DNA of 64,000 bases from Siphonodentalium dalli. Its lineage: Eukaryota; Mollusca; Scaphopoda; Gadilida; Siphonodentaliidae. The DNA lies in NCBI GenBank assembly GCA_032622095.1, contig CP136062.1, positions 2,108,001-2,172,000 of the forward strand. Direction: 5' to 3'. Each line of letters begins with the position of its first letter. Within the stretch, counting starts at the first letter, position 1. A program made the translations under genes and the position numbers. A model generated the notes under the pieces. It did not search any database. It was not told where the DNA came from and saw only the letters and a program-made list of their open reading frames with translations. Positions 16,932 through 64,000 of the stretch are shown here, piece by piece.

Positions 16932-17273
16932 TGTATTTCTTTCGAGTTGTGTATCTTCAAGAACGAGTTTATATGATTTCGTAACCTCAATTTCTCAGAA
17001 TGAGCCAAATTCCGTATTTGATGGTGAAGTATTTAAAAAGACTATGAAAAAGCAATGGCATTTCCACTGTATTGTTGAGTCTGCAGATCGCGGAAGTCCT
17101 GTCTAAATACTCATGTACTTTTGAGTGAAGAAAATATACAAAATGAATTGGAAGTAAGCCTAACACATGAGCATCATCCGATGCGGTCGAAAAACAGGGA
17201 TCACTATGCTACTTTGTTTCCATTGTGGAAGGACTTTGCTAATATTGAGGTGAATGACAACGGTCGTTGTCTT
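16932..17273 (+). pseudogene. Duplicated segment N, copy D, truncated
   Basis: Follows copy C with the same linker seen between A and B (ATCCCGGAGCAAATCATAAT...CGGTAAACCGT). It matches segment N of copy B closely up to AACGGTCGTTGTCTT, then switches abruptly at 17,272-17,275 into a macrosatellite body. The end of this copy is therefore the left breakpoint of the composite repeat region. Confidence 0.55.
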
Positions 17274-18389
17274 CTTAGTCCGAGGAAGAAAATTTGACAG
17301 GGTTGGACATATATTTTTACACTGGGGTGGGGGCAATATTTTCGCAATTTTTTTTTATTATTGACATTCATCTATTTAAGTATGTAGATTCCCTGAACGA
17401 AAACAAACCCATACCGGAAAGGATTTTTGTAATCCGAGAAGAAATGCAAGAGTTACGGGCCCTCAAAGTTTGCAATTTGGTCCCATGTGCTTGTGACCCT
17501 ATCTCCTCCGAAGATGTCGAACTTTGGATGTCGTCTGATATCCCAGTGCGTGCGGTCTGAAGAGAGCACGCGATGGGCCAAATTTTGCCAGTGTCGGTTC
17601 AGTGTTGTGGGTCAGGGGAGGGGTGGTCCGGGGTACCAATTTTGTATTCTTCTCCGAATCGGATGAAACTTGGAATATAACATCCATACCGCCAACCGAT
17701 CTAGAAACTGAAAGAATTTCGAAAATCCATTGAAAAATGTCAGAGTTGTGGACCTTCAAACAATGCAAATTTGGCCCCATATGCTTGTGATCACATCTCC
17801 TCCGAAGATGTCAAACTTTGGATGTCAACTGATACGCCAATGCGTGCGGTCTGAAGAGAGCACGCGATGAGCCAAATTTTGCCAGTGTCGGTTCAGTGTT
17901 GTGGGTCAGGGGAGGGGTGGTCCGGGATACCAAAATTTATTTCATCTCCGAATCATATGAAACTTGATATATAACATATACCATACACGTTGATCATAAA
18001 ACTGAAAACAGATTGTAAATCCGTTAAAAAATGGCGGAGATTTGGGCCCTCAAACTTTGAATGTGGGCCCGTATTCTTTCCAATAAACAAAATGTTATTC
18101 GTCTCTGAATCAGACAAAATTTATAACAAATAATCAATGTAAGTAGCTGATCACAATACTCAAAACAATTTTTAAATCCATTGGAAAATAACGGAGTTAC
18201 GGGCTCTCAAAATTCGCATTTTGGGCCGGGTTTGACTATTTCCCAATCCCGTCACCCAATTTCGAGGCAGGGGTGGGGTCACTCCCAAACACTTGAGATC
18301 AACCCACACATGTTAAGGGAAAGATATAATCATCCTAATTCATATTTTCCGTCCCTTAACTGCGATTTATTGAGCTCATGATTTGCCCT
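17274..18389 (+). repeat. Truncated type III unit body
   Basis: Homologous to 37,760-38,880 and 39,538-40,657 and nearly identical over long stretches. It contains the internal ~302-bp direct repeat (ATCTCCTCCGAAGATGTC at about 17,501 and 17,803, each followed by GAGAGCACGCGATG and GTCAGGGGAGGGGTGGTCC). It starts abruptly inside the unit. Confidence 0.85.
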
Positions 18390-18600
18390 ATTATTATACT
18401 TCCATGGTGTAACCAAGGAAGTATATTGTTTTTCTACTGCGGCCGTTTTCTGTTTAATTGGAAATACTCAGAAACTAATGGGAGGAGGACCGCGAAATCT
18501 CTAGCGAATGTAGGCATCTAAGGTCTACTAAAAATAATGCTATCCGGATGTTGGTCCAATATATTTTGACAGAGTTATGGCCCTTTTTCGATTATTTTTC
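18390..18600 (+). repeat. Type III unit head
   Basis: Starts ATTATTATACTTCCATGG and contains the interrupted palindrome TATACTTCC-A-TGGT / ACCA-A-GGAAGTATA. It ends with GAGTTATGGCCCTTTTTCGA and a TTTTTCATT tail before the next ATTATTATACTTCC. The usual body is missing: the head joins directly to the first 1220-bp unit. Confidence 0.85.
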
Positions 18601-21600
18601 ATTATTATACTTCCATATTTTAATATGGGAGTATATTGTATTTCTGTTGACCCAGTTTTCCGTTTAATTGCAAGTATTCCGAAACTAATGACAGTAGGAA
18701 CGCAAAATTTTCAGGAAATGTAGGCACCTAAGAGTTACTGAAGTTATAGGTATCCCCAGTTCGGCCCAACTTTTCTTTAAGGGGTTATCGCACTTTTAAA
18801 TTTTTTTTTTTATTTTTCTCTATTATTATTCTTCTTCTTCCTAGTAAAAGCGTACCCTTATATCTCAGGAACCGCTAAATGTAGAACGCTGAAATTGTCT
18901 GGGTTTGTACAACTCCCACAGTAGACGGAAGTGTTTCTATTGCGAATTTTGTCCGTTCTTGATTTATGGAGTTATGGGCCTTAAACCGGCCTCTCGCATT
19001 TATCGACAACTGTAGGGTATATCTCGAACGCATTGAGGCAGTGGAACGGGACAAATGTTATGATGTAGAGAAACTTAAACGTGGTTCAGTTCCACAAAAT
19101 GGACGTTGTCCGATTATTAACCGTGGAGTGGGGGACGGTGTTCAAAGTCGTAAAAAATAAAGTCCCTTCGATTGCGACCATACTTACATGTCATAGTCTA
19201 CATTGTACACCGATAACGATGCCGTGAATATTTTGTAAATCGGTCGAAAATTGACAGAGTTACCGACCCCTGAATGTCCAAAAATGACGCAAAAATCCTT
19301 GTGTCCACAACTCCTCCCAGACCGATGCTCGGACAAAGGTTGTTGTTATCAATTAACGATCGGTATGCACGAATGAGCAGGCACGCGAAATTTGGGCATC
19401 ATCGGGCGAAAATTGGCTAGATGCATGCAGATTGAAGTGCTAACATTTGACACTTATACAAGTTTAGAACCCGTTAACGCAGATGAATGGGGTTGGTGTC
19501 ATTCGACGGGGATTATCGAGGCGAATACAATGATGTCAGATTGAAAATAATATTTCGGCGAATAGCTGAGATATGGTCATTTTTTCGAAGTTATGTGTGG
19601 ATATTCACACGCAAATATGCCTATCGTGTAGATCTCACGAAGACGAACTCAATGACACCAGTCGCAACACTCTAGCTTAAAAACCGACTGAGATAGAGAG
19701 GTTTTATCACCAAGTCACCTATTGTCGCGGTAATGGCATTTTCGCATAGAAATGGCTCCACTGAACTCAGAAATGCCAATATTACTTATGCTGACCATCA
19801 CAAACAATTTCAGCAGGTACATTATTATACTTCCATATTTTAATATGGGAGTATATTGTATTTCTGTTGACCCAGTTTTCCGTTTAATTGCAAGTATTCC
19901 GAAACTAATGACAGTAGGAACGCAAAATTTTCAGGAAATGTAGGCACCTAAGAGTTACTGAAGTTATAGGTATCCCCAGTTCGGCCCAACTTTTCTTTAA
20001 GGGGTTATCGCACTTTTAAAAAAAATATTTTATTTTTCTCTATTATTATTCTTCTTCTTCCTAGTGAAAGCGTACCCTTATATCTCAGGAACCGCTAAAT
20101 GTAGAACGCTGAAATTTTCTGGGTTTGTACAACTCCCACAGTAGACGGAAGTGTTTCTATTGCGAATTTTGTCCGTTCTTGATTTATGGAGTTATGGGCC
20201 TTAAACCGGCCTCTCGCATTTATCGACAACTGTAGGGTATATCTCGAACGCATTGAGGCAGTGGAACGGGACAAATGTTATGATGTAGAGAAACTTAAAC
20301 GTGGTTCAGTTCCACAAAATGGACGTTGTCCGATTATTAACCGTGGAGTGGGGGACGGTGTTCAAAGTCGTAAAAAATAAAGTCCCTTCGATTGCGACCA
20401 TACTTACATGTCATAGTCTACATTGTACACCGATAACGATGCCGTGAATATTTTGTAAATCGGTCGAAAATTGACAGAGTTACCGACCCCTGAATGTCCA
20501 AAAATGACGCAAAAATCCTTGTGTCCACAACTCCTCCCAGACCGATGCTCGGACAAAGGTTGTTGTTATCAATTAACGATCGGTATGCACGAATGAGCAG
20601 GCACGCGAAATTTGGGCATCATCGGGCGAAAATTGGCTAGATGCATGCAGATTGAAGTGCTGAAATTTGACACTTATACAAGTTTAGAACCCGTTAACGC
20701 AGATGAATGGGGTTGGTGTCATTCGACGGGGATTATCGAGGCGAATACAATGATGTCAGATTGAAAATAATATTTCGGCGAATAGCTGAGATATGGTCAT
20801 TTTTTCGAAGTTATGTGTGGATATTCACACGCAAATATGCCTATCGTGTAGATCTCACGAAGACGAACTCAATGACACCAGTCGCAACACTCTAGCTTAA
20901 AAACCGACTGAGATAGAGAGGTTTTATCACCAAGTCACCTATTGTCGCGGTAATGGCATTTTCGCATAGAAATGGCTCCACTGAACTCAGAAATGCCAAT
21001 ATTACTTATGCTGACCATCACAAACAATTTCAGCAGGTACATTATTATACTTCCATATTTTAATATGGGAGTATATTGTATTTCTGTTGACCCAGTTTTC
21101 CGTTTAATTGCAAGTATTCCGAAACTAATGACAGTAGGAACGCAAAATTTTCAGGAAATGTAGGCACCTAAGAGTTACTGAAGTTATAGGTATCCCCAGT
21201 TCGGCCCAACTTTTCTTTAAGGGGTTATCGCACTTTTAAATTTTTTTTATTATTTTTCTCTATTATTATTCTTCTTCTTCCTAGTAAAAGCGTACCCTTA
21301 TATCTCAGGAACCGCTAAATGTAGAACGCTGAAATTTTCTGGGTTTGTACAACTCCCACAGTAGACGGAAGTGTTTCTATTGCGAATTTTGTCCGTTCTT
21401 GATTTATGGAGTTATGGGCCTTAAACCGGCCTCTCGCATTTATCGACAACTGTAGGGTATATCTCGAACGCATTGAGGCAGTGGAACGGGACAAATGTTA
21501 TGATGTAGAGAAACTTAAACGTGGTAGAGTTCCACAAAATGGACGTTGTCCGATTATTAACCGTGGAGTGGGGGACGGTGTTCAAAGTCGTAAAAAATAA

Positions 21601-24600
21601 AGTCCCTTCGATTGCGACCATACTTACATGTCATAGTCTACATTGTACACCGATAACGATGCCGTGAATATTTTGTAAATCGGTCGAAAATTGACAGAGT
21701 TACCGACCCCTGAATGTCCAAAAATGACGCAAAAATCCTTGTGTCCACAACTCCTCCCAGACCGATGCTCGGACAAAGGTTGTTGTTATCAATTAACGAT
21801 CGGTATGCACGAATGAGCAGGCACGCGAAATTTGGGCATCATCGGGCGAAAATTGGCTAGATGCATGCAGATTGAAGTGCTAACATTTGACACTTATACA
21901 AGTTTAGAACCCGTTAACGCAGATGAATGGGGTTGGTGTCATTCGACGGGGATTATCGAGGCGAATACAATGATGTCAGATTGAAAATAATATTTCGGCG
22001 AATAGCTGAGATATGGTCATTTTTTCGAAGTTATGTGTGGATATTCACACGCAAATATGCCTATCGTGTAGATCTCACGAAGACGAACTCAATGACACCA
22101 GTCGCAACACTCTAGCTTAAAAACCGACTGAGATAGAGAGGTTTTATCACCAAGTCACCTATTGTCGCGGTAATGGCATTTTCGCATAGAAATGGCTCCA
22201 CTGAACTCAGAAATGCCAATATTACTTATGCTGACCATCACAAACAATTTCAGCAGGTACATTATTATACTTCCATATTTTAATATGGGAGTATATTGTA
22301 TTTCTGTTGACCCAGTTTTCCGTTTAATTGCAAGTATTCCGAAACTAATGACAGTAGGAACGCAAAATTTTCAGGAAATGTAGGCACCTAAGAGTTACTG
22401 AAGTTATAGGTATCCCCAGTTCGGCCCAACTTTTCTTTAAGGGGTTATCGCACTTTTAAAAAAAATATTTTATTTTTCTCTATTATTATTCTTCTTCTTC
22501 CTAGTGAAAGCGTACCCTTATATCTCAGGAACCGCTAAATGTAGAACGCTGAAATTTTCTGGGTTTGTACAACTCCCACAGTAGACGGAAGTGTTTCTAT
22601 TGCGAATTTTGTCCGTTCTTGATTTATGGAGTTATGGGCCTTAAACCGGCCTCTCGCATTTATCGACAACTGTAGGGTATATCTCGAACGCATTGAGGCA
22701 GTGGAACGGGACAAATGTTATGATGTAGAGAAACTTAAACGTGGTTCAGTTCCACAAAATGGACGTTGTCCGATTATTAACCGTGGAGTGGGGGACGGTG
22801 TTCAAAGTCGTAAAAAATAAAGTCCCTTCGATTGCGACCATACTTACATGTCATAGTCTACATTGTACACCGATAACGATGCCGTGAATATTTTGTAAAT
22901 CGGTCGAAAATTGACAGAGTTACCGACCCCTGAATGTCCAAAAATGACGCAAAAATCCTTGTGTCCACAACTCCTCCCAGACCGATGCTCGGACAAAGGT
23001 TGTTGTTATCAATTAACGATCGGTATGCACGAATGAGCAGGCACGCGAAATTTGGGCATCATCGGGCGAAAATTGGCTAGATGCATGCAGATTGAAGTGC
23101 TGAAATTTGACACTTATACAAGTTTAGAACCCGTTAACGCAGATGAATGGGGTTGGTGTCATTCGACGGGGATTATCGAGGCGAATACAATGATGTCAGA
23201 TTGAAAATAATATTTCGGCGAATAGCTGAGATATGGTCATTTTTTCGAAGTTATGTGTGGATATTCACACGCAAATATGCCTATCGTGTAGATCTCACGA
23301 AGACGAACTCAATGACACCAGTCGCAACACTCTAGCTTAAAAACCGACTGAGATAGAGAGGTTTTATCACCAAGTCACCTATTGTCGCGGTAATGGCATT
23401 TTCGCATAGAAATGGCTCCACTGAACTCAGAAATGCCAATATTACTTATGCTGACCATCACAAACAATTTCAGCAGGTACATTATTATACTTCCATATTT
23501 TAATATGGGAGTATATTGTATTTCTGTTGACCCAGTTTTCCGTTTAATTGCAAGTATTCCGAAACTAATGACAGTAAGAACGCAAAATTTTCAGGAAATG
23601 TAGGCACCTAAGAGTTACTGAAGTTATAGGTATCCCCAGTTCGGCCCAACTTTTCTTTAAGGGGTTATCGCACTTTTTAAAAAAATAATTTATTTTTCTC
23701 TATTATTATTCTTCTTCTTCCTAGTAAAAGCGTACCCTTATATCTCAGGAACCGCTAAATGTAGAACGCTGAAATTTTCTGGGTTTGTACAACTCCCACA
23801 GTAGACGGAAGTGTTTCTATTGCGAATTTTGTCCGTTCTTGATTTATGGAGTTATGGGCCTTAAACCGGCCTCTCGCATTTATCGACAACTGTAGGGTAT
23901 ATCTCGAACGCATTGAGGCAGTGGAACGGGACAAATGTTATGATGTAGAGAAACTTAAACGTGGTTCAGTTCCACAAAATGGACGTTGTCCGATTATTAA
24001 CCGTGGAGTGGGGGACGGTGTTCAAAGTCGTAAAAAATAAAGTCCCTTCGATTGCGACCATACTTACATGTCATAGTCTACATTGTACACCGATAACGAT
24101 GCCGTGAATATTTTGTAAATCGGTCGAAAATTGACAGAGTTACCGACCCCTGAATGTCCAAAAATGACGCAAAAATCCTTGTGTCCACAACTCCTCCCAG
24201 ACCGATGCTCGGACAAAGGTTGTTGTTATCAATTAACGATCGGTATGCACGAATGAGCAGGCACGCGAAATTTGGGCATCATCGGGCGAAAATTGGCTAG
24301 ATGCATGCAGATTGAAGTGCTGAAATTTGACACTTATACAAGTTTAGAACCCGTTAACGCAGATGAATGGGGTTGGTGTCATTCGACGGGGATTATCGAG
24401 GCGAATACAATGATGTCAGATTGAAAATAATATTTCGGCGAATAGCTGAGATATGGTCATTTTTTCGAAGTTATGTGTGGATATTCACACGCAAATATGC
24501 CTATCGTGTAGATCTCACGAAGACGAACTCAATGACACCAGTCGCAACACTCTAGCTTAAAAACCGACTGAGATAGAGAGGTTTTATCACCAAGTCACCT

Positions 24601-27600
24601 ATTGTCGCGGTAATGGCATTTTCGCATAGAAATGGCTCCACTGAACTCAGAAATGCCAATATTACTTATGCTGACCATCACAAACAATTTCAGCAGGTAC
24701 ATTATTATACTTCCATATTTTAATATGGGAGTATATTGTATTTCTGTTGACCCAGTTTTCCGTTTAATTGCAAGTATTCCGAAACTAATGACAGTAAGAA
24801 CGCAAAATTTTCAGGAAATGTAGGCACCTAAGAGTTACTGAAGTTATAGGTATCCCCAGTTCGGCCCAACTTTTCTTTAAGGGGTTATCGCACTTTTTAA
24901 AAAAATAATTTATTTTTCTCTATTATTATTCTTCTTCTTCCTAGTAAAAGCGTACCCTTATATCTCAGGAACCGCTAAATGTAGAACGCTGAAATTTTCT
25001 GGGTTTGTACAACTCCCACAGTAGACGGAAGTGTTTCTATTGCGAATTTTGTCCGTTCTTGATTTATGGAGTTATGGGCCTTAAACCGGCCTCTCGCATT
25101 TATCGACAACTGTAGGGTATATCTCGAACGCATTGAGGCAGTGGAACGGGACAAATGTTATGATGTAGAGAAACTTAAACGTGGTTCAGTTCCACAAAAT
25201 GGACGTTGTCCGATTATTAACCGTGGAGTGGGGGACGGTGTTCAAAGTCGTAAAAAATAAAGTCCCTTCGATTGCGACCATACTTACATGTCATAGTCTA
25301 CATTGTACACCGATAACGATGCCGTGAATATTTTGTAAATCGGTCGAAAATTGACAGAGTTACCGACCCCTGAATGTCCAAAAATGACGCAAAAATCCTT
25401 GTGTCCACAACTCCTCCCAGACCGATGCTCGGACAAAGGTTGTTGTTATCAATTAACGATCGGTATGCACGAATGAGCAGGCACGCGAAATTTGGGCATC
25501 ATCGGGCGAAAATTGGCTAGATGCATGCAGATTGAAGTGCTGAAATTTGACACTTATACAAGTTTAGAACCCGTTAACGCAGATGAATGGGGTTGGTGTC
25601 ATTCGACGGGGATTATCGAGGCGAATACAATGATGTCAGATTGAAAATAATATTTCGGCGAATAGCTGAGATATGGTCATTTTTTCGAAGTTATGTGTGG
25701 ATATTCACACGCAAATATGCCTATCGTGTAGATCTCACGAAGACGAACTCAATGACACCAGTCGCAACACTCTAGCTTAAAAACCGACTGAGATAGAGAG
25801 GTTTTATCACCAAGTCACCTATTGTCGCGGTAATGGCATTTTCGCATAGAAATGGCTCCACTGAACTCAGAAATGCCAATATTACTTATGCTGACCATCA
25901 CAAACAATTTCAGCAGGTACATTATTATACTTCCATATTTTAATATGGGAGTATATTGTATTTCTGTTGACCCAGTTTTCCGTTTAATTGCAAGTATTCC
26001 GAAACTAATGACAGTAAGAACGCAAAATTTTCAGGAAATGTAGGCACCTAAGAGTTACTGAAGTTATAGGTATCCCCAGTTCGGCCCAACTTTTCTTTAA
26101 GGGGTTATCGCACTTTTTAAAAAAATAATTTATTTTTCTCTATTATTATTCTTCTTCTTCCTAGTAAAAGCGTACCCTTATATCTCAGGAACCGCTAAAT
26201 GTAGAACGCTGAAATTTTCTGGGTTTGTACAACTCCCACAGTAGACGGAAGTGTTTCTATTGCGAATTTTGTCCGTTCTTGATTTATGGAGTTATGGGCC
26301 TTAAACCGGCCTCTCGCATTTATCGACAACTGTAGGGTATATCTCGAACGCATTGAGGCAGTGGAACGGGACAAATGTTATGATGTAGAGAAACTTAAAC
26401 GTGGTTCAGTTCCACAAAATGGACGTTGTCCGATTATTAACCGTGGAGTGGGGGACGGTGTTCAAAGTCGTAAAAAATAAAGTCCCTTCGATTGCGACCA
26501 TACTTACATGTCATAGTCTACATTGTACACCGATAACGATGCCGTGAATATTTTGTAAATCGGTCGAAAATTGACAGAGTTACCGACCCCTGAATGTCCA
26601 AAAATGACGCAAAAATCCTTGTGTCCACAACTCCTCCCAGACCGATGCTCGGACAAAGGTTGTTGTTATCAATTAACGATCGGTATGCACGAATGAGCAG
26701 GCACGCGAAATTTGGGCATCATCGGGCGAAAATTGGCTAGATGCATGCAGATTGAAGTGCTGAAATTTGACACTTATACAAGTTTAGAACCCGTTAACGC
26801 AGATGAATGGGGTTGGTGTCATTCGACGGGGATTATCGAGGCGAATACAATGATGTCAGATTGAAAATAATATTGCGGCGAATAGCTGAGATATGGTCAT
26901 TTTTTCGAAGTTATGTGTGGATATTCACACGCAAATATGCCTATCGTGTAGATCTCACGAAGACGAACTCAATGACACCAGTCGCAACACTCTAGCTTAA
27001 AAACCGACTGAGATAGAGAGGTTTTATCACCAAGTCACCTATTGTCGCGGTAATGGCATTTTCGCATAGAAATGGCTCCACTGAACTCAGAAATGCCAAT
27101 ATTACTTATGCTGACCATCACAAACAATTTCAGCAGGTACATTATTATACTTCCATATTTTAATATGGGAGTATATTGTATTTCTGTTGACCCAGTTTTC
27201 CGTTTAATTGCAAGTATTCCGAAACTAATGACAGTAAGAACGCAAAATTTTCAGGAAATGTAGGCACCTAAGAGTTACTGAAGTTATAGGTATCCCCAGT
27301 TCGGCCCAACTTTTCTTTAAGGGGTTATCGCACTTTTTAAAAAAATAATTTATTTTTCTCTATTATTATTCTTCTTCTTCCTAGTAAAAGCGTACCCTTA
27401 TATCTCAGGAACCGCTAAATGTAGAACGCTGAAATTTTCTGGGTTTGTACAACTCCCACAGTAGACGGAAGTGTTTCTATTGCGAATTTTGTCCGTTCTT
27501 GATTTATGGAGTTATGGGCCTTAAACCGGCCTCTCGCATTTATCGACAACTGTAGGGTATATCTCGAACGCATTGAGGCAGTGGAACGGGACAAATGTTA

Positions 27601-30600
27601 TGATGTAGAGAAACTTAAACGTGGTTCAGTTCCACAAAATGGACGTTGTCCGATTATTAACCGTGGAGTGGGGGACGGTGTTCAAAGTCGTAAAAAATAA
27701 AGTCCCTTCGATTGCGACCATACTTACATGTCATAGTCTACATTGTACACCGATAACGATGCCGTGAATATTTTGTAAATCGGTCGAAAATTGACAGAGT
27801 TACCGACCCCTGAATGTCCAAAAATGACGCAAAAATCCTTGTGTCCACAACTCCTCCCAGACCGATGCTCGGACAAAGGTTGTTGTTATCAATTAACGAT
27901 CGGTATGCACGAATGAGCAGGCACGCGAAATTTGGGCATCATCGGGCGAAAATTGGCTAGATGCATGCAGATTGAAGTGCTGAAATTTGACACTTATACA
28001 AGTTTAGAACCCGTTAACGCAGATGAATGGGGTTGGTGTCATTCGACGGGGATTATCGAGGCGAATACAATGATGTCAGATTGAAAATAATATTTCGGCG
28101 AATAGCTGAGATATGGTCATTTTTTCGAAGTTATGTGTGGATATTCACACGCAAATATGCCTATCGTGTAGATCTCACGAAGACGAACTCAATGACACCA
28201 GTCGCAACACTCTAGCTTAAAAACCGACTGAGATAGAGAGGTTTTATCACCAAGTCACCTATTGTCGCGGTAATGGCATTTTCGCATAGAAATGGCTCCA
28301 CTGAACTCAGAAATGCCAATATTACTTATGCTGACCATCACAAACAATTTCAGCAGGTACATTATTATACTTCCATATTTTAATATGGGAGTATATTGTA
28401 TTTCTGTTGACCCAGTTTTCCGTTTAATTGCAAGTATTCCGAAACTAATGACAGTAAGAACGCAAAATTTTCAGGAAATGTAGGCACCTAAGAGTTACTG
28501 AAGTTATAGGTATCCCCAGTTCGGCCCAACTTTTCTTTAAGGGGTTATCGCACTTTTTAAAAAAATAATTTATTTTTCTCTATTATTATTCTTCTTCTTC
28601 CTAGTAAAAGCGTACCCTTATATCTCAGGAACCGCTAAATGTAGAACGCTGAAATTTTCTGGGTTTGTACAACTCCCACAGTAGACGGAAGTGTTTCTAT
28701 TGCGAATTTTGTCCGTTCTTGATTTATGGAGTTATGGGCCTTAAACCGGCCTCTCGCATTTATCGACAACTGTAGGGTATATCTCGAACGCATTGAGGCA
28801 GTGGAACGGGACAAATGTTATGATGTAGAGAAACTTAAACGTGGTTCAGTTCCACAAAATGGACGTTGTCCGATTATTAACCGTGGAGTGGGGGACGGTG
28901 TTCAAAGTCGTAAAAAATAAAGTCCCTTCGATTGCGACCATACTTACATGTCATAGTCTACATTGTACACCGATAACGATGCCGTGAATATTTTGTAAAT
29001 CGGTCGAAAATTGACAGAGTTACCGACCCCTGAATGTCCAAAAATGACGCAAAAATCCTTGTGTCCACAACTCCTCCCAGACCGATGCTCGGACAAAGGT
29101 TGTTGTTATCAATTAACGATCGGTATGCACGAATGAGCAGGCACGCGAAATTTGGGCATCATCGGGCGAAAATTGGCTAGATGCATGCAGATTGAAGTGC
29201 TGAAATTTGACACTTATACAAGTTTAGAACCCGTTAACGCAGATGAATGGGGTTGGTGTCATTCGACGGGGATTATCGAGGCGAATACAATGATGTCAGA
29301 TTGAAAATAATATTGCGGCGAATAGCTGAGATATGGTCATTTTTTCGAAGTTATGTGTGGATATTCACACGCAAATATGCCTATCGTGTAGATCTCACGA
29401 AGACGAACTCAATGACACCAGTCGCAACACTCTAGCTTAAAAACCGACTGAGATAGAGAGGTTTTATCACCAAGTCACCTATTGTCGCGGTAATGGCATT
29501 TTCGCATAGAAATGGCTCCACTGAACTCAGAAATGCCAATATTACTTATGCTGACCATCACAAACAATTTCAGCAGGTACATTATTATACTTCCATATTT
29601 TAATATGGGAGTATATTGTATTTCTGTTGACCCAGTTTTCCGTTTAATTGCAAGTATTCCGAAACTAATGACAGTAAGAACGCAAAATTTTCAGGAAATG
29701 TAGGCACCTAAGAGTTACTGAAGTTATAGGTATCCCCAGTTCGGCCCAACTTTTCTTTAAGGGGTTATCGCACTTTTTAAAAAAATAATTTATTTTTCTC
29801 TATTATTATTCTTCTTCTTCCTAGTAAAAGCGTACCCTTATATCTCAGGAACCGCTAAATGTAGAACGCTGAAATTTTCTGGGTTTGTACAACTCCCACA
29901 GTAGACGGAAGTGTTTCTATTGCGAATTTTGTCCGTTCTTGATTTATGGAGTTATGGGCCTTAAACCGGCCTCTCGCATTTATCGACAACTGTAGGGTAT
30001 ATCTCGAACGCATTGAGGCAGTGGAACGGGACAAATGTTATGATGTAGAGAAACTTAAACGTGGTTCAGTTCCACAAAATGGACGTTGTCCGATTATTAA
30101 CCGTGGAGTGGGGGACGGTGTTCAAAGTCGTAAAAAATAAAGTCCCTTCGATTGCGACCATACTTACATGTCATAGTCTACATTGTACACCGATAACGAT
30201 GCCGTGAATATTTTGTAAATCGGTCGAAAATTGACAGAGTTACCGACCCCTGAATGTCCAAAAATGACGCAAAAATCCTTGTGTCCACAACTCCTCCCAG
30301 ACCGATGCTCGGACAAAGGTTGTTGTTATCAATTAACGATCGGTATGCACGAATGAGCAGGCACGCGAAATTTGGGCATCATCGGGCGAAAATTGGCTAG
30401 ATGCATGCAGATTGAAGTGCTGAAATTTGACACTTATACAAGTTTAGAACCCGTTAACGCAGATGAATGGGGTTGGTGTCATTCGACGGGGATTATCGAG
30501 GCGAATACAATGATGTCAGATTGAAAATAATATTTCGGCGAATAGCTGAGATATGGTCATTTTTTCGAAGTTATGTGTGGATATTCACACGCAAATATGC

Positions 30601-33010: not shown

Positions 33011-33057
33011 ATATGGAAGTATACGAATTTCCCACCGGGAATTCGAAAAGCCGCTAG
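33011..33057 (+). other. Element I 3' terminus: inverted arm, hairpin, CTAG
   Basis: ATATGGAAGTATA (33,011-33,023) is the exact complement of the 13-base unit start TATACTTCCATAT. It is followed by a stem CGAATT(T)CCC / GGGAATTCG (33,024-33,045, 3-nt loop, one bulged T), eight bases, and CTAG (33,054-33,057). The next base is T, then TATACTTCC of element II. Confidence 0.8.
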
Positions 33058-37313: not shown

Positions 37314-37359
37314 ATATGGAAGTATCAAAATTCTGCAGGCCAGAATTTTAACCCTCTAG
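37314..37359 (+). other. Element II 3' terminus: inverted arm, hairpin, CTAG
   Basis: ATATGGAAGTAT (37,314-37,325) is the inverted copy of the element's own start. A perfect 9-bp stem AAAATTCTG / CAGAATTTT with a 5-nt loop (37,327-37,349) follows, then AACCCT-type spacer and CTAG at 37,356-37,359. The spacer and CTAG layout matches the other two termini. Confidence 0.85.
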
Positions 37360-39092: not shown

Positions 39093-39093
<1 letters not shown>

Positions 39094-39137
<44 letters not shown>

Positions 39138-44530: not shown

Positions 44531-44638
44531 TAGAAATGTTAATGCAAGTGCACCATCAGATCATAAGACACCAATACGTTGTCGCATGAAGAGGAACACA
44601 CATATACGCATAGCACTCACATGGGATGGGATGGTATA

Positions 44639-44678
44639 CCATGGAAGTATATCTGATTCCATGGAATCTGACCTCTAG
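44639..44678 (+). other. Element III 3' terminus: inverted arm, palindrome, CTAG
   Basis: CCATGGAAGTATA (44,639-44,651) is the complement of the type III start TATACTTCCATGG. It is followed by a perfect 14-nt palindrome GATTCCATGGAATC (44,655-44,668), the spacer TGACCT, and CTAG (44,675-44,678). The next bases are TTATTATTA, the start of element IV. Confidence 0.85.

Positions 44679-46430: not shown

Positions 46431-46460
<30 letters not shown>
44679..46460 (+). repeat. Single type III unit leading element IV
   Basis: Nearly identical to the unit at 39,159-40,870, with small indels (a lost A near 45,406 and extra bases near 45,599 and 45,653). It ends in a TTA tract (46,433-46,460) that joins straight to the 1389-bp array. 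The layout is the same as at 17.27-18.60 kb, where a type III unit precedes the 1220-bp array. Confidence 0.9.
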
Positions 46461-46465
<5 letters not shown>

Positions 46466-52400: not shown

Positions 52401-55400
52401 GAAATGTTCTGATCGCCTGTTCTCACATAGCAAGAAAGATAGCTGGATTTAGTTTCTATGGTAGTGCTGGCCGTTGTCAATATACTTCACAAAAATAATT
52501 TGGACAGGGTCGGACTTACATTTTTTGGTTAGGGTGGGGGCGAAATTTTCGCAATTTTATTTTTGCGATGATTTCAACCATTTTACTACCATGTATCTTT
52601 AGGACGTACTAATGATCCTCCTGAAAGAATTTTGTAAATCGGTTGAGAAATGTCCAAGTTACAGACCATCGAATATTATATTCATACATTGGCTGAGGAG
52701 AAAGTGGTTGTGAGCACAACTCCTCCTAAACGACGCAAATGAGCAGGATTTGGTTTATGTGAGCGTGTTACTCATAGAGAGAAGACGAACTGGTGCAATT
52801 TTTACCAAGATCCAAAAATATTTGTCCCTATTAGGGAGGGGGCAAAAATTGTAATTTTTTTGTCGTCTTCGATTCGAACCAAAATTGTTGTGAAGTATCT
52901 ATAGGACGTTCTGGGAGTACTCCAGACAGAATTTTGTAAATCGGTTGAAAAATGTAGAAATTGTGGCCCATTAATTCTTATAAAGTTTACACAAGATACA
53001 CTATGGATTTAAATTCCTACAACCAATCGTCACTTTTTTGGTGTCATTCGATGGAGAATTTCTAGTACTTCTAAATAATTACCTACTTACCGTATTATAT
53101 TGATGGAAGCCAGAGATAATCGAAATGTATACACTGAACAGCATATATATAGGCCTACATAGTAGAATATTGCCACAATATCTTACTAAAACCCTACTAT
53201 ATAATAAAGGGGCATCAATTGCGAACACAATGCCGCAAAAATTAGCTCGATATCTCGAAAATTGGCCGAGATATGGTGACTTTTCTACCCGCGTCACCTA
53301 ATTCCGAGGTATGGGTGGGGGTCACACCAGAAGGTTCCAACTGAACACAGAAATGTCAAGAAACCGTACTATGGACATAACAATCAATTCCGCGCGATTT
53401 CCTAATTATACTTCCATGTTTTACATGGAAGTATATTGTTTTTGTGATTTTTATTTTTCTCTATTATTATTATTCTTTAATCTTCTTAGCAATTTTATAA
53501 TGAGCATAGCTCAGTCAATACAAGAGTTAGAAAGCTAAAACTTTGTATGTATATATATGTATACAAACTCTAGTGCTTAGGCCTATTGAGAATCATGTCC
53601 TCACTTGATTTGCAGAGTTATCTCCCTTTATGTGAACAATTGGTGTTTTCAGAACTCCGAAAATATAAGGAGTACAGCACTGAAATTTGGTCGATACATA
53701 CATCTTGATATCCACTGAATCATGAGCACATCACAAACTCTGTCCGTCTTTCCTCTCCAGAGTTATCTCCCATATATATGTCAACCTCGAAATGTTCTGA
53801 TCGCCTGTTCTCACATAGCAAGAAAGATAGCTGGATTTAGTTTCTATGGTAGTGCTGGCCGTTGTCAATATACTTCACAAAAATAATTTGGACAGGGTCG
53901 GACTTACATTTTTTGGTTAGGGTGGGGGCGAAATTTTCGCAATTTTATTTTTGCGATGATTTCAACCATTTTACTACCATGTATCTTTAGGACGTACTAA
54001 TGATCCTCCTGAAAGAATTTTGTAAATCGGTTGAGAAATGTCCAAGTTACAGACCATCGAATATTATATTCATACATTGGCTGAGGAGAAAGTGGTTGTG
54101 AGCACAACTCCTCCTAAACGACGCAAATGAGCAGGATTTGGTTTATGTGAGCGTGTTACTCATAGAGAGAAGACGAACTGGTGCAATTTTTACCAAGATC
54201 CAAAAATATTTGTCCCTATTAGGGAGGGGGCAAAAATTGTAATTTTTTTGTCGTCTTCGATTCGAACCAAAATTGTTGTGAAGTATCTATAGGACGTTCT
54301 GGGAGTACTCCAGACAGAATTTTGTAAATCGGTTGAAAAATGTAGAAATTGTGGCCCATTAATTCTTATAAAGTTTACACAAGATACACTATGGATTTAA
54401 ATTCCTACAACCAATCGTCACTTTTTTGGTGTCATTCGATGGAGAATTTCTAGTACTTCTAAATAATTACCTACTTACCGTATTATATTGATGGAAGCCA
54501 GAGATAATCGAAATGTATACACTGAACAGCATATATATAGGCCTACATAGTAGAATATTGCCACAATATCTTACTAAAACCCTACTATATAATAAAGGGG
54601 CGTCAATTGCGAACACAATGCCGCAAAAATTAGCTCGATATCTCGAAAATTGGCCGAGATATGGTGACTTTTCTACCCGCGTCACCTAATTCCGAGGTAT
54701 GGGTGGGGGTCACACCAGAAGGTTCCAACTGAACACAGAAATGTCAAGAAACCGTACTATGGACATAACAATCAATTCCGCGCGATTTCCTAATTATACT
54801 TCCATGTTTTACATGGAAGTATATTGTTTTTGTGATTTTTATTTTTCTCTATTATTATTATTCTTTATTCTTCTTAGCAATTTTATAATGAGCATAGCTC
54901 AGTCAATACAAGAGTTAGAAAGCTAAAACTTTGTATGTATATATATGTATACAAACTCTAGTGCTTAGGCCTATTGAGAATTATGTCCTCACTTGATTTG
55001 CAGAGTTATCTCCCTTTATGTGAACAATTGGTGTTTTCAGAACTCCGAAAATATAAGGAGTACAGCACTGAAATTTGGTCGATACATACATCTTCATATC
55101 CACTGAATCATGAGCACATCACAAACTCTGTCCGTCTTTCCTCTCCAGAGTTATCTCCCATATATATGTCAACCTCGAAATGTTCTGATCGCCTGTTCTC
55201 ACATAGCAAGAAAGATAGCTGGATTTAGTTTCTATGGTAGTGCTGGCCGTTGTCAATATACTTCACAAAAATAATTTGGACAGGGTCGGACTTACATTTT
55301 TTGGTTAGGGTGGGGGCGAAATTTTCGCAATTTTATTTTTGCGATGATTTCAACCATTTTTACTACCATGTATCTTTAGGACGTACTAATGATCCTCCTG

Positions 55401-58400
55401 AAAGAATTTTGTAAATCGGTTGAGAAATGTCCAAGTTACAGACCATCGAATATTATATTCATACATTGGCTGAGGAGAAAGTGGTTGTGAGCACAACTCC
55501 TCCTAAACGACGCAAATGAGCAGGATTTGGTTTATGTGAGCGTGTTACTCATAGAGAGAAGACGAACTGGTGCAATTTTTACCAAGATCCAAAAATATTT
55601 GTCCCTATTAGGGAGGGGGCAAAAATTGTAATTTTTTTGTCGTCTTCGATTCGAACCAAAATTGTTGTGAAGTATCTATAGGACGTTCTGGGAGTACTCC
55701 AGACAGAATTTTGTAAATCGGTTGAAAAATGTAGAAATTGTGGCCCATTAATTCTTATAAAGTTTACACAAGATACACTATGGATTTAAATTCCTACAAC
55801 CAATCGTCACTTTTTTGGTGTCATTCGATGGAGAATTTCTAGTACTTCTAAATAATTACCTACTTACCGTATTATATTGATGGAAGCCAGAGATAATCGA
55901 AATGTATACACTGAACAGCATATATATAGGCCTACATAGTAGAATATTGCCACAATATCTTACTAAAACCCTACTATATAATAAAGGGGCATCAATTGCG
56001 AACACAATGCCGCAAAAATTAGCTCGATATCTCGAAAATTGGCCGAGATATGGTGACTTTTCTACCCGCGTCACCTAATTCCGAGGTATGGGTGGGGGTC
56101 ACACCAGAAGGTTCCAACTGAACACAGAAATGTCAAGAAACCGTACTATGGACATAACAATCAATTCCGCGCGATTTCCTAATTATACTTCCATGTTTTA
56201 CATGGAAGTATATTGTTTTTGTGATTTTTATTTTTCTCTATTATTATTATTCTTTATTCTTCTTAGCAATTTTATAATGAGCATAGCTCAGTCAATACAA
56301 GAGTTAGAAAGCTAAAACTTTGTATGTATATATATGTATACAAACTCTAGTGCTTAGGCCTATTGAGAATCATGTCCTCACTTGATTTGCAGAGTTATCT
56401 CCCTTTATGTGAACAATTGGTGTTTTCAGAACTCCGAAAATATAAGGAGTACAGCACTGAAATTTGGTCGATACATACATCTTGATATCCACTGAATCAT
56501 GAGCACATCACAAACTCTGTCCGTCTTTCCTCTCCAGAGTTATCTCCCATATATATGTCAACCTCGAAATGTTCTGATCGCCTGTTCTCACATAGCAAGA
56601 AAGATAGCTGGATTTAGTTTCTATCGTAGTGCTGGCCGTTGTCAATATACTTCACAAAAATAATTTGGACAGGGTCGGACTTACATTTTTTGGTTAGGGT
56701 GGGGGCGAAATTTTCGCAATTTTATTTTTGCGATGATTTCAACCATTTTTACTACCATGTATCTTTATGACGTACTAATGATCCTCCTGAAAGAATTTTG
56801 TAAATCGGTTGAGAAATGTCCAAGTTACAGACCATCGAATATTATATTCATACATTGGCTGAGGAGAAAGTGGTTGTGAGCACAACTCCTCCTAAACGAC
56901 GCAAATGAGCAGGATTTGGTTTATGTGAGCGTGTTACTCATAGAGAGAAGACGAACTGGTGCAATTTTTACCAAGATCCAAAAATATTTGTCCCTATTAG
57001 GGAGGGGGCAAAAATTGTAATTTTTTTGTCGTCTTCGATTCGAACCAAAATTGTTGTGAAGTATCTATAGGACGTTCTGGGAGTACTCCAGACAGAATTT
57101 TGTAAATCGGTTGAAAAATGTAGAAATTGTGGCCCATTAATTCTTATAAAGTTTACACAAGATACACTATGGATTTAAATTCCTACAACCAATCGTCACT
57201 TTTTTGGTGTCATTCGATGGAGAATTTCTAGTACTTCTAAATAATTACCTACTTACCGTATTATATTGATGGAAGCCAGAGATAATCGAAATGTATACAC
57301 TGAACAGCATATATATAGGCCTACATAGTAGAATATTGCCACAATATCTTACTAAAACCCTACTATATAATAAAGGGGCATCAATTGCGAACACAATGCC
57401 GCAAAAATTAGCTCGATATCTCGAAAATTGGCCGAGATATGGTGACTTTTCTACCCGCGTCACCTAATTCCGAGGTATGGGTGGGGGTCACACCAGAAGG
57501 TTCCAACTGAACACAGAAATGTCAAGAAACCGTACTATGGACATAACAATCAATTCCGCGCGATTTCCTAATTATACTTCCATGTTTTACATGGAAGTAT
57601 ATTGTTTTTGTGATTTTTATTTTTCTCTATTATTATTATTCTTTATTCTTCTTAGCAATTTTATAATGAGCATAGCTCAGTCAATACAAGAGTTAGAAAG
57701 CTAAAACTTTGTATGTATATATATGTATACAAACTCTAGTGCTTAGGCCTATTGAGAATCATGTCCTCACTTGATTTGCAGAGTTATCTCCCTTTATGTG
57801 AACAATTGGTGTTTTCAGAACTCCGAAAATATAAGGAGTACAGCACTGAAATTTGGTCGATACATACATCTTGATATCCACTGAATCATGAGCACATCAC
57901 AAACTCTGTCCGTCTTTCCTCTCCAGAGTTATCTCCCATATATATGTCAACCTCGAAATGTTCTGATCGCCTGTTCTCACATAGCAAGAAAGATAGCTGG
58001 ATTTAGTTTCTATCGTAGTGCTGGCCGTTGTCAATATACTTCACAAAAATAATTTGGACAGGGTCGGACTTACATTTTTTGGTTAGGGTGGGGGCGAAAT
58101 TTTCGCAATTTTATTTTTGCGATGATTTCAACCATTTTTACTACCATGTATCTTTAGGACGTACTAATGATCCTCCTGAAAGAATTTTGTAAATCGGTTG
58201 AGAAATGTCCAAGTTACAGACCATCGAATATTATATTCATACATTGGCTGAGGAGAAAGTGGTTGTGAGCACAACTCCTCCTAAACGACGCAAATGAGCA
58301 GGATTTGGTTTATGTGAGCGTGTTACTCATAGAGAGAAGACGAACTGGTGCAATTTTTACCAAGATCCAAAAATATTTGTCCCTATTAGGGAGGGGGCAA

Positions 58401-61400
58401 AAATTGTAATTTTTTTGTCGTCTTCGATTCGAACCAAAATTGTTGTGAAGTATCTATAGGACGTTCTGGGAGTACTCCAGACAGAATTTTGTAAATCGGT
58501 TGAAAAATGTAGAAATTGTGGCCCATTAATTCTTATAAAGTTTACACAAGATACACTATGGATTTAAATTCCTACAACCAATCGTCACTTTTTTGGTGTC
58601 ATTCGATGGAGAATTTCTAGTACTTCTAAATAATTACCTACTTACCGTATTATATTGATGGAAGCCAGAGATAATCGAAATGTATACACTGAACAGCATA
58701 TATATAGGCCTACATAGTAGAATATTGCCACAATATCTTACTAAAACCCTACTATATAATAAAGGGGCATCAATTGCGAACACAATGCCGCAAAAATTAG
58801 CTCGATATCTCGAAAATTGGCCGAGATATGGTGACTTTTCTACCCGCGTCACCTAATTCCGAGGTATGGGTGGGGGTCACACCAGAAGGTTCCAACTGAA
58901 CACAGAAATGTCAAGAAACCGTACTATGGACATAACAATCAATTCCGCGCGATTTCCTAATTATACTTCCATGTTTTACATGGAAGTATATTGTTTTTGT
59001 GATTTTTATTTTTCTCTATTATTATTATTCTTTATTCTTCTTAGCAATTTTATAATGAGCATAGCTCAGTCAATACAAGAGTTAGAAAGCTAAAACTTTG
59101 TATGTATATATATGTATACAAACTCTAGTGCTTAGGCCTATTGAGAATCATGTCCTCACTTGATTTGCAGAGTTATCTCCCTTTATGTGAACAATTGGTG
59201 TTTTCAGAACTCCGAAAATATAAGGAGTACAGCACTGAAATTTGGTCGATACATACATCTTGATATCCACTGAATCATGAGCACATCACAAACTCTGTCC
59301 GTCTTTCCTCTCCAGAGTTATCTCCCATATATATGTCAACCTCGAAATGTTCTGATCGCCTGTTCTCACATAGCAAGAAAGATAGCTGGATTTAGTTTCT
59401 ATGGTAGTGCTGGCCGTTGTCAATATACTTCACAAAAATAATTTGGACAGGGTCGGACTTACATTTTTTGGTTAGGGTGGGGGCGAAATTTTCGCAATTT
59501 TATTTTTGCGATGATTTCAACCATTTTTACTACCATGTATCTTTAGGACGTACTAATGATCCTCCTGAAAGAATTTTGTAAATCGGTTGAGAAATGTCCA
59601 AGTTACAGACCATCGAATATTATATTCATACATTGGCTGAGGAGAAAGTGGTTGTGAGCACAACTCCTCCTAAACGACGCAAATGAGCAGGATTTGGTTT
59701 ATGTGAGCGTGTTACTCATAGAGAGAAGACGAACTGGTGCAATTTTTACCAAGATCCAAAAATATTTGTCCCTATTAGGGAGGGGGCAAAAATTGTAATT
59801 TTTTTGTCGTCTTCGATTCGAACCAAAATTGTTGTGAAGTATCTATAGGACGTTCTGGGAGTACTCCAGACAGAATTTTGTAAATCGGTTGAAAAATGTA
59901 GAAATTGTGGCCCATTAATTCTTATAAAGTTTACACAAGATACACTATGGATTTAAATTCCTACAACCAATCGTCACTTTTTTGGTGTCATTCGATGGAG
60001 AATTTCTAGTACTTCTAAATAATTACCTACTTACCGTATTATATTGATGGAAGCCAGAGATAATCGAAATGTATACACTGAACAGCATATATATAGGCCT
60101 ACATAGTAGAATATTGCCACAATATCTTACTAAAACCCTACTATATAATAAAGGGGCATCAATTGCGAACACAATGCCGCAAAAATTAGCTCGATATCTC
60201 GAAAATTGGCCGAGATATGGTGACTTTTCTACCCGCGTCACCTAATTCCGAGGTATGGGTGGGGGTCACACCAGAAGGTTCCAACTGAACACAGAAATGT
60301 CAAGAAACCGTACTATGGACATAACAATCAATTCCGCGCGATTTCCTAATTATACTTCCATGTTTTACATGGAAGTATATTGTTTTTGTGATTTTTATTT
60401 TTCTCTATTATTATTATTCTTTATTCTTCTTAGCAATTTTATAATGAGCATAGCTCAGTCAATACAAGAGTTAGAAAGCTAAAACTTTGTATGTATATAT
60501 ATGTATACAAACTCTAGTGCTTAGGCCTATTGAGAATCATGTCCTCACTTGATTTGCAGAGTTATCTCCCTTTATGTGAACAATTGGTGTTTTCAGAACT
60601 CCGAAAATATAAGGAGTACAGCACTGAAATTTGGTCGATACATACATCTTGATATCCACTGAATCATGAGCACATCACAAACTCTGTCCGTCTTTCCTCT
60701 CCAGAGTTATCTCCCATATATATGTCAACCTCGAAATGTTCTGATCGCCTGTTCTCACATAGCAAGAAAGATAGCTGGATTTAGTTTCTATGGTAGTGCT
60801 GGCCGTTGTCAATATACTTCACAAAAATAATTTGGACAGGGTCGGACTTACATTTTTTGGTTAGGGTGGGGGCGAAATTTTCGCAATTTTATTTTTGCGA
60901 TGATTTCAACCATTTTTACTACCATGTATCTTTAGGACGTACTAATGATCCTCCTGAAAGAATTTTGTAAATCGGTTGAGAAATGTCCAAGTTACAGACC
61001 ATCGAATATTATATTCATACATTGGCTGAGGAGAAAGTGGTTGTGAGCACAACTCCTCCTAAACGACGCAAATGAGCAGGATTTGGTTTATGTGAGCGTG
61101 TTACTCATAGAGAGAAGACGAACTGGTGCAATTTTTACCAAGATCCAAAAATATTTGTCCCTATTAGGGAGGGGGCAAAAATTGTAATTTTTTTGTCGTC
61201 TTCGATTCGAACCAAAATTGTTGTGAAGTATCTATAGGACGTTCTGGGAGTACTCCAGACAGAATTTTGTAAATCGGTTGAAAAATGTAGAAATTGTGGC
61301 CCATTAATTCTTATAAAGTTTACACAAGATACACTATGGATTTAAATTCCTACAACCAATCGTCACTTTTTTGGTGTCATTCGATGGAGAATTTCTAGTA

Positions 61401-64000
61401 CTTCTAAATAATTACCTACTTACCGTATTATATTGATGGAAGCCAGAGATAATCGAAATGTATACACTGAACAGCATATATATAGGCCTACATAGTAGAA
61501 TATTGCCACAATATCTTACTAAAACCCTACTATATAATAAAGGGGCATCAATTGCGAACACAATGCCGCAAAAATTAGCTCGATATCTCGAAAATTGGCC
61601 GAGATATGGTGACTTTTCTACCCGCGTCACCTAATTCCGAGGTATGGGTGGGGGTCACACCAGAAGGTTCCAACTGAACACAGAAATGTCAAGAAACCGT
61701 ACTATGGACATAACAATCAATTCCGCGCGATTTCCTAATTATACTTCCATGTTTTACATGGAAGTATATTGTTTTTGTGATTTTTATTTTTCTCTATTAT
61801 TATTATTCTTTATTCTTCTTAGCAATTTTATAATGAGCATAGCTCAGTCAATACAAGAGTTAGAAAGCTAAAACTTTGTATGTATATATATGTATACAAA
61901 CTCTAGTGCTTAGGCCTATTGAGAATCATGTCCTCACTTGATTTGCAGAGTTATCTCCCTTTATGTGAACAATTGGTGTTTTCAGAACTCCGAAAATATA
62001 AGGAGTACAGCACTGAAATTTGGTCGATACATACATCTTGATATCCACTGAATCATGAGCCCATCACAAACTCTGTCCGTCTTTCCTCTCCAGAGTTATC
62101 TCCCATATATATGTCAACCTCGAAATGTTCTGATCGCCTGTTCTCACATAGCAAGAAAGATAGCTGGATTTAGTTTCTATGGTAGTGCTGGCCGTTGTCA
62201 ATATACTTCACAAAAATAATTTGGACAGGGTCGGACTTACATTTTTTGGTTAGGGTGGGGGCGAAATTTTCGCAATTTTATTTTTGCGATGATTTCAACC
62301 ATTTTTACTACCATGTATCTTTAGGACGTACTAATGATCCTCCTGAAAGAATTTTGTAAATCGGTTGAGAAATGTCCAAGTTACAGACCATCGAATATTA
62401 TATTCATACATTGGCTGAGGAGAAAGTGGTTGTGAGCACAACTCCTCCTAAACGACGCAAATGAGCAGGATTTGGTTTATGTGAGCGTGTTACTCATAGA
62501 GAGAAGACGAACTGGTGCAATTTTTACCAAGATCCAAAAATATTTGTCCCTATTAGGGAGGGGGCAAAAATTGTAATTTTTTTGTCGTCTTCGATTCGAA
62601 CCAAAATTGTTGTGAAGTATCTATAGGACGTTCTGGGAGTACTCCAGACAGAATTTTGTAAATCGGTTGAAAAATGTAGAAATTGTGGCCCATTAATTCT
62701 TATAAAGTTTACACAAGATACACTATGGATTTAAATTCCTACAACCAATCGTCACTTTTTTGGTGTCATTCGATGGAGAATTTCTAGTACTTCTAAATAA
62801 TTACCTACTTACCGTATTATATTGATGGAAGCCAGAGATAATCGAAATGTATACACTGAACAGCATATATATAGGCCTACATAGTAGAATATTGCCACAA
62901 TATCTTACTAAAACCCTACTATATAATAAAGGGGCATCAATTGCGAACACAATGCCGCAAAAATTAGCTCGATATCTCGAAAATTGGCCGAGATATGGTG
63001 ACTTTTCTACCCGCGTCACCTAATTCCGAGGTATGGGTGGGGGTCACACCAGAAGGTTCCAACTGAACACAGAAATGTCAAGAAACCGTACTATGGACAT
63101 AACAATCAATTCCGCGCGATTTCCTAATTATACTTCCATGTTTTACATGGAAGTATATTGTTTTTGTGATTTTTATTTTTCTCTATTATTATTATTCTTT
63201 ATTCTTCTTAGCAATTTTATAATGAGCATAGCTCAGTCAATACAAGAGTTAGAAAGCTAAAACTTTGTATGTATATATATGTATACAAACTCTAGTGCTT
63301 AGGCCTATTGAGAATCATGTCCTCACTTGATTTGCAGAGTTATCTCCCTTTATGTGAACAATTGGTGTTTTCAGAACTCCGAAAATATAAGGAGTACAGC
63401 ACTGAAATTTGGTCGATACATACATCTTGATATCCACTGAATCATGAGCCCATCACAAACTCTGTCCGTCTTTCCTCTCCAGAGTTATCTCCCATATATA
63501 TGTCAACCTCGAAATGTTCTGATCGCCTGTTCTCACATAGCAAGAAAGATAGCTGGATTTAGTTTCTATGGTAGTGCTGGCCGTTGTCAATATACTTCAC
63601 AAAAATAATTTGGACAGGGTCGGACTTACATTTTTTGGTTAGGGTGGGGGCGAAATTTTCGCAATTTTATTTTTGCGATGATTTCAACCATTTTTACTAC
63701 CATGTATCTTTAGGACGTACTAATGATCCTCCTGAAAGAATTTTGTAAATCGGTTGAGAAATGTCCAAGTTACAGACCATCGAATATTATATTCATACAT
63801 TGGCTGAGGAGAAAGTGGTTGTGAGCACAACTCCTCCTAAACGACGCAAATGAGCAGGATTTGGTTTATGTGAGCGTGTTACTCATAGAGAGAAGACGAA
63901 CTGGTGCAATTTTTACCAAGATCCAAAAATATTTGTCCCTATTAGGGAGGGGGCAAAAATTGTAATTTTTTTGTCGTCTTCGATTCGAACCAAAATTGTT
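46461..64000 (+). repeat. Macrosatellite array, 1389-bp unit, 12.6 copies, continues off the window
   Basis: Units start TTATACTTCCATGTTTTACA at 46,461, 47,851, 49,240, 50,629, 52,018, 53,406, 54,794, 56,183, 57,572, 58,961, 60,350, 61,739 and 63,128. Period is 1389, except 1390 for the first unit (TTACCATGG instead of TTACATGG) and 1388 for units 5 and 6 (one T lost in CCATTTTTACT). Other differences are rare. Units 8 and 9 share CTATCGTAGTGC, and units 12 and 13 share GAGCCCATCAC. Unit 7 alone has GAATTATGTCC and CTTCATATCC. The palindrome has 13-bp arms TATACTTCCATGT / ACATGGAAGTATA. Although 1389 is divisible by three, no frame stays open; the 72- and 75-codon frames in each unit are not supported as genes. 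Confidence 0.97.

Follow-up and report, generated by a model that had tools for sequence, protein, structure and literature searches.

Nested Helentron-like elements with kilobase tandem arrays in the genome of the scaphopod Siphonodentalium dalli

In the present study, a 64,000-nucleotide stretch of the Siphonodentalium dalli genome (hereafter the window, C2:2108001-2172000, from a genome of 2.23 Gb in 9 contigs) was analyzed, in which Helentron-type transposable elements are built around tandem arrays of kilobase units. Taken as a whole, the results are best explained, in our judgment probably correctly, by HINE-like non-autonomous Helentrons that insert into one another and whose arrays subsequently grow locally. 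The insertion of copies into the TTA-rich tract of other copies is shown for two inserts in the window and is indicated elsewhere by junction counts. From approximately 17.3 kb rightward, the window consists of a macrosatellite of ~1777-bp units (B) carrying inserted elements, and the unit lengths of the arrays are 1220 (A), 1777 (B), 1732 (B2), 1389 (C), and 1392 bp (D). The features, in window coordinates, are as follows.

17265-18604, plus strand: left part of host macrosatellite B, comprising a unit end (17265-18393) and the next head (18394-18604), with the microsatellite broken by element A
18605-33057, plus strand: element A, with 10 units of 1220 bp, an 11th head (30805-31483), a tail (31484-33057), and CTAG
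33013-33057, plus strand: 3' terminus of A, with the ATGGAAGTAT arm, hairpin, and CTAG
33058-37359, plus strand: element D (4302 bp), head-to-tail after A, with one 1392-bp unit, a second head (34450-35113), a tail (35114-37359), and CTAG
37316-37359, plus strand: 3' terminus of D, with arm, hairpin, and CTAG
37360-38884, plus strand: host unit B resumed at its (TTA)n tract, rebuilding one unit with 18394-18604
38885-40661, plus strand: intact unit B of 1777 bp, the in-window empty site, with an ATT tract at 39082-39156
40662-40890, plus strand: head of the next unit B, broken in the microsatellite
40891-44678, plus strand: element B2, nested in unit B, with one 1732-bp unit, a second head (42623-43144), a tail (43145-44678), and CTAG
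44641-44678, plus strand: 3' terminus of B2, with arm, hairpin (not significant versus shuffles), and CTAG
44679-46222, plus strand: host unit B resumed, rebuilding one unit with 40662-40890
46223-46460, plus strand: head of the next unit B, broken in the microsatellite
46461-64000 and continuing past the window, plus strand: array C of 1389-bp units, with a nested copy (head, tail, and CTAG) beyond the window, then unit C again

The window is mainly nested, not head-to-tail, because host unit B resumes after 37,359 and 44,678, in both cases continuing after the CTAG from its (TTA)n tract. When the flanks of the 18,605-37,359 inserts are joined, the resulting 1736 bp align over the whole intact unit B at 94.0%, and the 1768-bp join around the 40,891-44,678 insert matches the intact unit (1777 bp) from end to end at 98.5%. 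A preliminary description of this DNA had read the 47 kb as a head-to-tail series in which the next element begins one T after each of three termini. The termini were indeed confirmed at 33,057, 37,359, and 44,678, each with the arm, a predicted stem-loop, and CTAG; however, the head-to-tail reading of the last two is ruled out by the joined flanks matching the intact unit B, and the next element begins one T later only at 33,057. This single direct head-to-tail junction in the window (33,057/33,058) lies between elements with different units, and a comparison of the units of A and D found no similarity. The left limit of 17,272 given in that description is not an element end; B is already in mid-unit there.

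Genome-wide, where the counts were obtained with exact patterns and are lower bounds for the features, 239 junctions of CTAG with a resumed unit B were observed among 2360 unit-B right sides, a ratio of ~10% between two patterns whose selected sets are not identical. Head-to-tail junctions numbered 141 versus 10,313 heads (~1.4%). A dense run of such CTAG|TTATACTTCC junctions is located near the middle of C5 (C5:131011802-131055278). The start of contig C1 (C1:119-54901) carries unit-B right-side motifs from within 120 bases, and 5 of the 14 listed come after CTAG; at C1:5364560-5374690, six such motifs follow one another in constant 2026-bp steps, above the usual unit, possibly reflecting a composite unit.

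The second line of evidence concerns the spacing of heads. Pairs of 5' heads ~200-260 bp apart were found 589 times (566+23) versus 3 at one control spacing, as self-insertion predicts; outside the window these pairs are known from pattern counts, in which a pair repeated in tandem does not represent several independent events. Among the window's own pairs, those at C2:2148685 and C2:2154246 correspond to the inserts at 40,891 and 46,461. Among the matches listed (the first 100 of 566), six pairs are exactly 1953 bp apart (C2:8615451-8625216) and, by position, are a tandem array of a double-headed unit, and some runs of three or four heads are also present (e.g. C1:265093448-265094115).

The ends of the elements are consistent with the Helentron/Helitron2 type previously suggested, including the 3' hairpin and an inverted copy of the 5'-end sequence close to the 3' end. 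At the 5' end, TTATACTTCC and then its own inverted copy together form a palindrome; at the 3' end, GGAAGTAT is succeeded by a hairpin and CTAG. A TTA-rich tract lies ~50-240 bp inside the 5' end; in unit B, the (ATT)n microsatellite is at about +200, i.e. within the 5' module. The arm ATGGAAGTAT occurs 50 times in the window versus 0.27 expected, and arm plus CTAG was matched 2153+2104 times in the genome versus 193+212 for the reversed control. The 5' palindrome TATACTTCC...GGAAGTATATTG occurs at 10,313 places (4989+5324) versus 0 for its control. A stem-loop followed by CTAG is predicted at all three termini of the window; with 200 shuffles each, those at 33,057 and 37,359 are unusual (fractions of equally stable shuffles, 0.01 and 0.02), and the one at 44,678 misses the 5% level (0.105). 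Among 19 distinct termini folded, a set that takes in 7 of another family described below and 1 from a Helentron locus on C8, 13 were matched in stability by <=5% of shuffles and 6 were not. TWA precedes 31 of the 32 heads of the window, internal heads included, and 9943 of the 10,313 heads of all kinds genome-wide, and insertion occurs at TWA|TT with no clear target duplication. Between 17 and 64 kb, a single frame of at least 150 aa (stop to stop) was observed, with a length of 165 aa.

Complete elements follow the plan (5' head + X)n + head + tail + CTAG, with 11 heads in A, two in D, and two in B2, and one 3' end each. The supposition that the arrays begin with the element's own 5' end was thus supported, and the layout of units, truncated unit, tail, and terminus is present in A, D, and B2; array C is not shown to be one element. 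The tail of D contains a repeat at a 359-bp offset. The previous estimate of 10 or more copies each applies to A (10 full units) and C (12 in the window) and fails for D and B2 (one full unit each). Array C comprises 18 heads when followed to 8.4 kb past the window. A CTAG ends 8,355 bases beyond the window, and after it unit C sets in again from its position 48, at 97% identity; therefore, this tail belongs to a copy nested in array C, and the interpretation of C as a single 18-head element closing at its CTAG is ruled out. The first head of array C (46461) has an extra C in the palindrome loop that is absent from the other 16 full units.

Dispersed copies sharing both ends were also found. 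Twenty stretches around termini were picked from the first 100 arm-plus-CTAG places listed, all on C1 and outside the densest clusters, and 12 of these belong to the same group as the window elements. In this group, a 5' head lies upstream of the CTAG in 12/12, and the CTAG is followed by T in 12/12 and by TT in 11/12, after which the flanks differ; TWA precedes TTATACTTCC in 13 of the 14 heads, the exception being L026. Single-head copies (e.g. L019 and L023) consist of a ~515-bp 5' head joined to a tail, the head of L024 measures 664 bp, and multi-head copies contain extra head + X units. L013 combines an almost complete unit with a shortened tail, X-type sequence lies ahead of a head in L016 and L020, and the 65 bp preceding the head of L028 match the end of unit D. 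On the minus strand at L027, the 5' flank reads as an inverted-repeat element, its ends being reverse complements, that extends up to the start of the Helentron copy.

Empty sites were sought for two of these 12 copies, L019 and L023. For L019, the joined flanks are matched at 40 of 40 scored places (among 577 candidates) from about base 1 to base 300, with 94-96% identity, and because these 40 uninterrupted places align with the join, the border is right to within a few bases. L013 was ruled out as an empty site for L019, as it matches the 5' flank alone. The corresponding genome search for L023 recovered nothing beyond the two flanks of that copy, whose matches share two bases of the query, as expected for a common TT. 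To judge from these alignments and from the two uninterrupted sites in the window, CTAG is a real 3' boundary for this group, as the preliminary description had supposed. Both checks named in that description, for other copies sharing both ends and for empty sites, came out in its favour. CTAG is not the end in every sampled stretch: in the remaining 8 of the 20 (L010, L011, L012, L014, L015, L018, L021, and L025), homology runs ~87-100 bp past it, and these 8, together with a second terminus at the edge of L018, are left out of the boundary counts. These 8 stretches form a further HINE-like family, which shares the arm and CTAG and has internal repeats offset by ~125-130 bp.

The variants within the arrays bear on how these grew. 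The 17 units of array C differ at 11 columns; 8 of these variants are private, and the 3 that are shared all fall in neighbouring units (p ~3e-4 for contiguity, computed after the pattern had been seen). In array A, 17 columns vary, and a two-unit block recurs across units 1-4. This pattern favours local duplication or exchange, and a rolling-circle birth of the array remains compatible with it.

Herein, we propose how such a structure might arise. Insertion into the TTA-rich tract of a resident copy would place a second 5' head ~220 bp behind the first. Rolling-circle replication running from the outer head to the first 3' end would then move a two-headed, one-tailed product, as in the self-insertion model for Fusarium, and the repeated heads would allow arrays to grow through local tandem duplication or unequal exchange. 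Double-headed units of this kind do occur in tandem, by position. In addition, five C1 intervals between junctions measure 4267-4346 bp, the size of element D (4302 bp), which by position suggests that a two-headed element spreads whole; exchange between arrays could also produce this.

An autonomous Helentron partner for these elements likely exists, on positional grounds. Helentrons encode Rep, helicase, and endonuclease domains, and often OTU as well. At least 151 matches to Helitron_like_N were found in the genome, and one frame of 2538 aa (P0001) contains OTU, Rep, and PIF1 domains above the Pfam cut-offs. The comparison set is made up of 64 Rep matches on C1-C3, extending to 280.7 Mb on C3, where the listing of CTAG|unit-B junctions ends; one C3 match beyond that point and those on C4-C9 are left aside. 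Three of the 64 are no more than 50 kb away from such a junction, each in a frame of more than 2500 aa; by frame length, these are 3 of 5 with frames >2000 aa versus 0 of 59 others (p 2.4e-4, tested after the pattern was noticed). The left junctions on C1 number 84 and the right ones 40. Among them, 28 intervals open at a head-pair junction and close at the CTAG|unit-B junction that comes next, and two of these intervals, C1:169469969-169508106 (38.1 kb) and C1:214392874-214432325 (39.5 kb), enclose a Rep match, both of the long-frame class; with 27 Rep matches on C1, the chance of at least two such intervals is ~7e-4, a value likewise calculated after the fact. Partial frames upstream of these two Reps (L037 and L038) contain OTU domains. 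Within 3.1-3.2 kb upstream of the two Reps, no exact 5' motif was found, and by position the heads lie 24-25 kb upstream. The TATACTTCC motif upstream of the C8 Helentron frames (L031 and L034) was ruled out as a 5' end, as similarity extends further upstream. Judged by position, the partner would be an OTU-Rep-helicase(-endonuclease) Helentron, carried within inserts of 38-39 kb that have the same two junction types as their borders.

Combining these elements, we tentatively suggest, as a possibility to which we assign less than even chances, that this Helentron lineage manufactures macrosatellites: its own 5' microsatellite would be the preferred target, heads would stack, transposition from the outermost head would spread the product, tandem growth would give kilobase-unit arrays, and a 38-39-kb autonomous Helentron in the same hot spot would serve the process. 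Several results weigh against self-insertion with local growth and a Helentron partner. The units of A-D (1.2-1.8 kb) exceed the ~220-bp self-insertion spacing, so the microsatellite step alone leaves X in these units unexplained; sequence comparison of X with the available tails found no similarity, and X as an old tail was therefore rejected. Internal duplication of the 5' module would yield the same pair spacing, and most pairs were counted only. The L019 empty sites span 303-308 bases versus 300 in the join. Regarding the partner, both probabilities are retrospective and the 38-39-kb inserts were placed by position; the endonuclease match in P0001, the one full protein tested, is just under the Pfam cut-off (23.3 vs 24.5 bits); in 13 pieces upstream of Rep loci (12 loci and L031), the exact 5' motif was present in two (L031 and L034) and an element end in neither; and the 3' end of the C2/C8 Helentron copies was not reached in the stretches examined.

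Other explanations of the arrays must be considered. Rolling-circle copying of circles without a 3' terminator, as modelled for plant Helitrons, might have made each array at once before its insertion as a whole, and the multiple 5' ends with a single 3' end are the signature reported for plants. The low diversity of array C, with its mostly private variants, would also agree with such an origin, whereas the adjacency of all its shared variants and the two-unit block of A would not. Moreover, TWA is kept at internal junctions as at chromosomal insertions, which would be needless for a 3'-deleted circle, although few independent unit types are available for this comparison. We thus regard birth from terminator-less circles as unlikely. 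The reuse of the 5' end in rolling-circle copying, raised in the preliminary description, is plausible in itself, and the evidence points to self-insertion followed by local duplication over one-shot rolling-circle copying. Complete elements laid head-to-tail by rolling-circle copying, as that description had it, would account for the one junction in the window and the 141 in the genome, some in dense runs such as that on C5. However, two of the three window junctions are a resumed host unit, and the sole head-to-tail pair, A and D, has different units; in addition, because insertion leaves a TWA|TT target at the element's own 5' border, repeated insertion also yields head-to-tail pairs, and we give this explanation little credence.

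It is very improbable that ordinary satellite arrays were invaded by Helentrons and that the palindromic heads are satellite sequence by chance. Unit B alone does build long arrays, for example at the start of C1, but dispersed elements begin with the same heads at insertion borders, and the arrays of A, D, and B2 start exactly at their own head, A and B2 doing so inside unit B. We consider there to be only the slightest chance that assembly error inflated or misplaced the arrays. Near-identical units assemble poorly, and the C units are almost identical; on the other hand, the two-unit block in A and the distinct nested inserts serve as landmarks, and the architecture recurs at many loci on several contigs, as judged from the assembly. 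Self-insertion with subsequent local growth accounts best for these observations as a whole.

With regard to known systems, the parts are of known kinds, and the scale and self-targeting are unusual. The available text on HINE/DINE-1 elements describes a 5' subterminal repeat with an inverted copy, a microsatellite, a 3' subterminal repeat with a stem-loop, and a TT preference (PMC4067079). All these end features are present here, together with the insertion at TT without duplication and the lack of transposase coding that also mark HINEs; the nested inverted 5' repeat, the 3' repeat with hairpin, and the microsatellite in the 5' module were each recovered. Unlike those elements as described in that text, the tandem unit here includes the 5' end, and sister elements insert preferentially into the microsatellite. 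In the Pacific oyster, the sections available describe Cg_HINE as an array between left and right modules, with monomers mostly of 140-180 bp, and some satellites labelled DNA/Helitron with 1.1-2.1-kb monomers (PMC7492417, PMC8268682). Helentron ends with tandem arrays are common to both systems, whereas the unit here starts with the 5' end, a feature not mentioned for Cg_HINE in those sections.

The preliminary description held that macrosatellite arrays beginning with the element's own 5' end were not a described structure. In principle this is incorrect, as several 5' ends combined with one 3' end have already been reported, according to the accessible portions of the sources, in plants and Fusarium. 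Rolling-circle amplified Helitron arrays of plants were reportedly described by Xiong 2016. Excerpts on these arrays give multiple 5' ends, a single 3' end, and several to several hundred repeats, and invoke terminator-less circles (PMC12628747). The ends are arranged alike here (11 heads in A, two each in D and B2), whereas the explanation in those excerpts is not microsatellite self-insertion. Composite Helitron2 elements of Fusarium oxysporum, in the extracts consulted, have several 5' termini and one 3' terminus, attributed to self-insertion, with a duplicated 5' part typically <200 bp (PMC5148889); the end arrangement is shared, whereas the present genome has head pairs in the hundreds and double-headed units arrayed in tandem. 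Head-to-tail junctions are mentioned in the part of PMC5876387 available. Among open-licence papers, no report was found of self-insertion at an element's own microsatellite building kilobase arrays. A canonical Helitron starts with TC. Its target lies between A and T, in the extract cited for Fusarium (PMC5148889), whereas the present elements start with TTATACTTCC and insert at TWA|TT.

Two further observations were made to the left of array B. The segments between 13948 and 17277 are repeated, 14198-14929 being 97% identical to 16543-17277 and 13948-14520 being 91% identical to 14801-15377, and an open frame at 6946-7620 matches a Mutator-like transposase domain (Pfam PF20700).

To date, how rolling-circle transposons give rise to satellites is debated, with terminator-less circles, self-insertion, and plain unequal exchange as the proposed routes. 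Self-nesting is more informative than the head-to-tail reading it replaces. The genome of S. dalli offers hundreds of candidate intermediates of one route, namely the nested copy, the double head, the tandem double head, and the kilobase array, and because these candidates have exact borders, the routes can be told apart by sequence. Moreover, the same genome contains candidates for giant autonomous Helentrons, located next to the arrays whose mobilisation they would drive.

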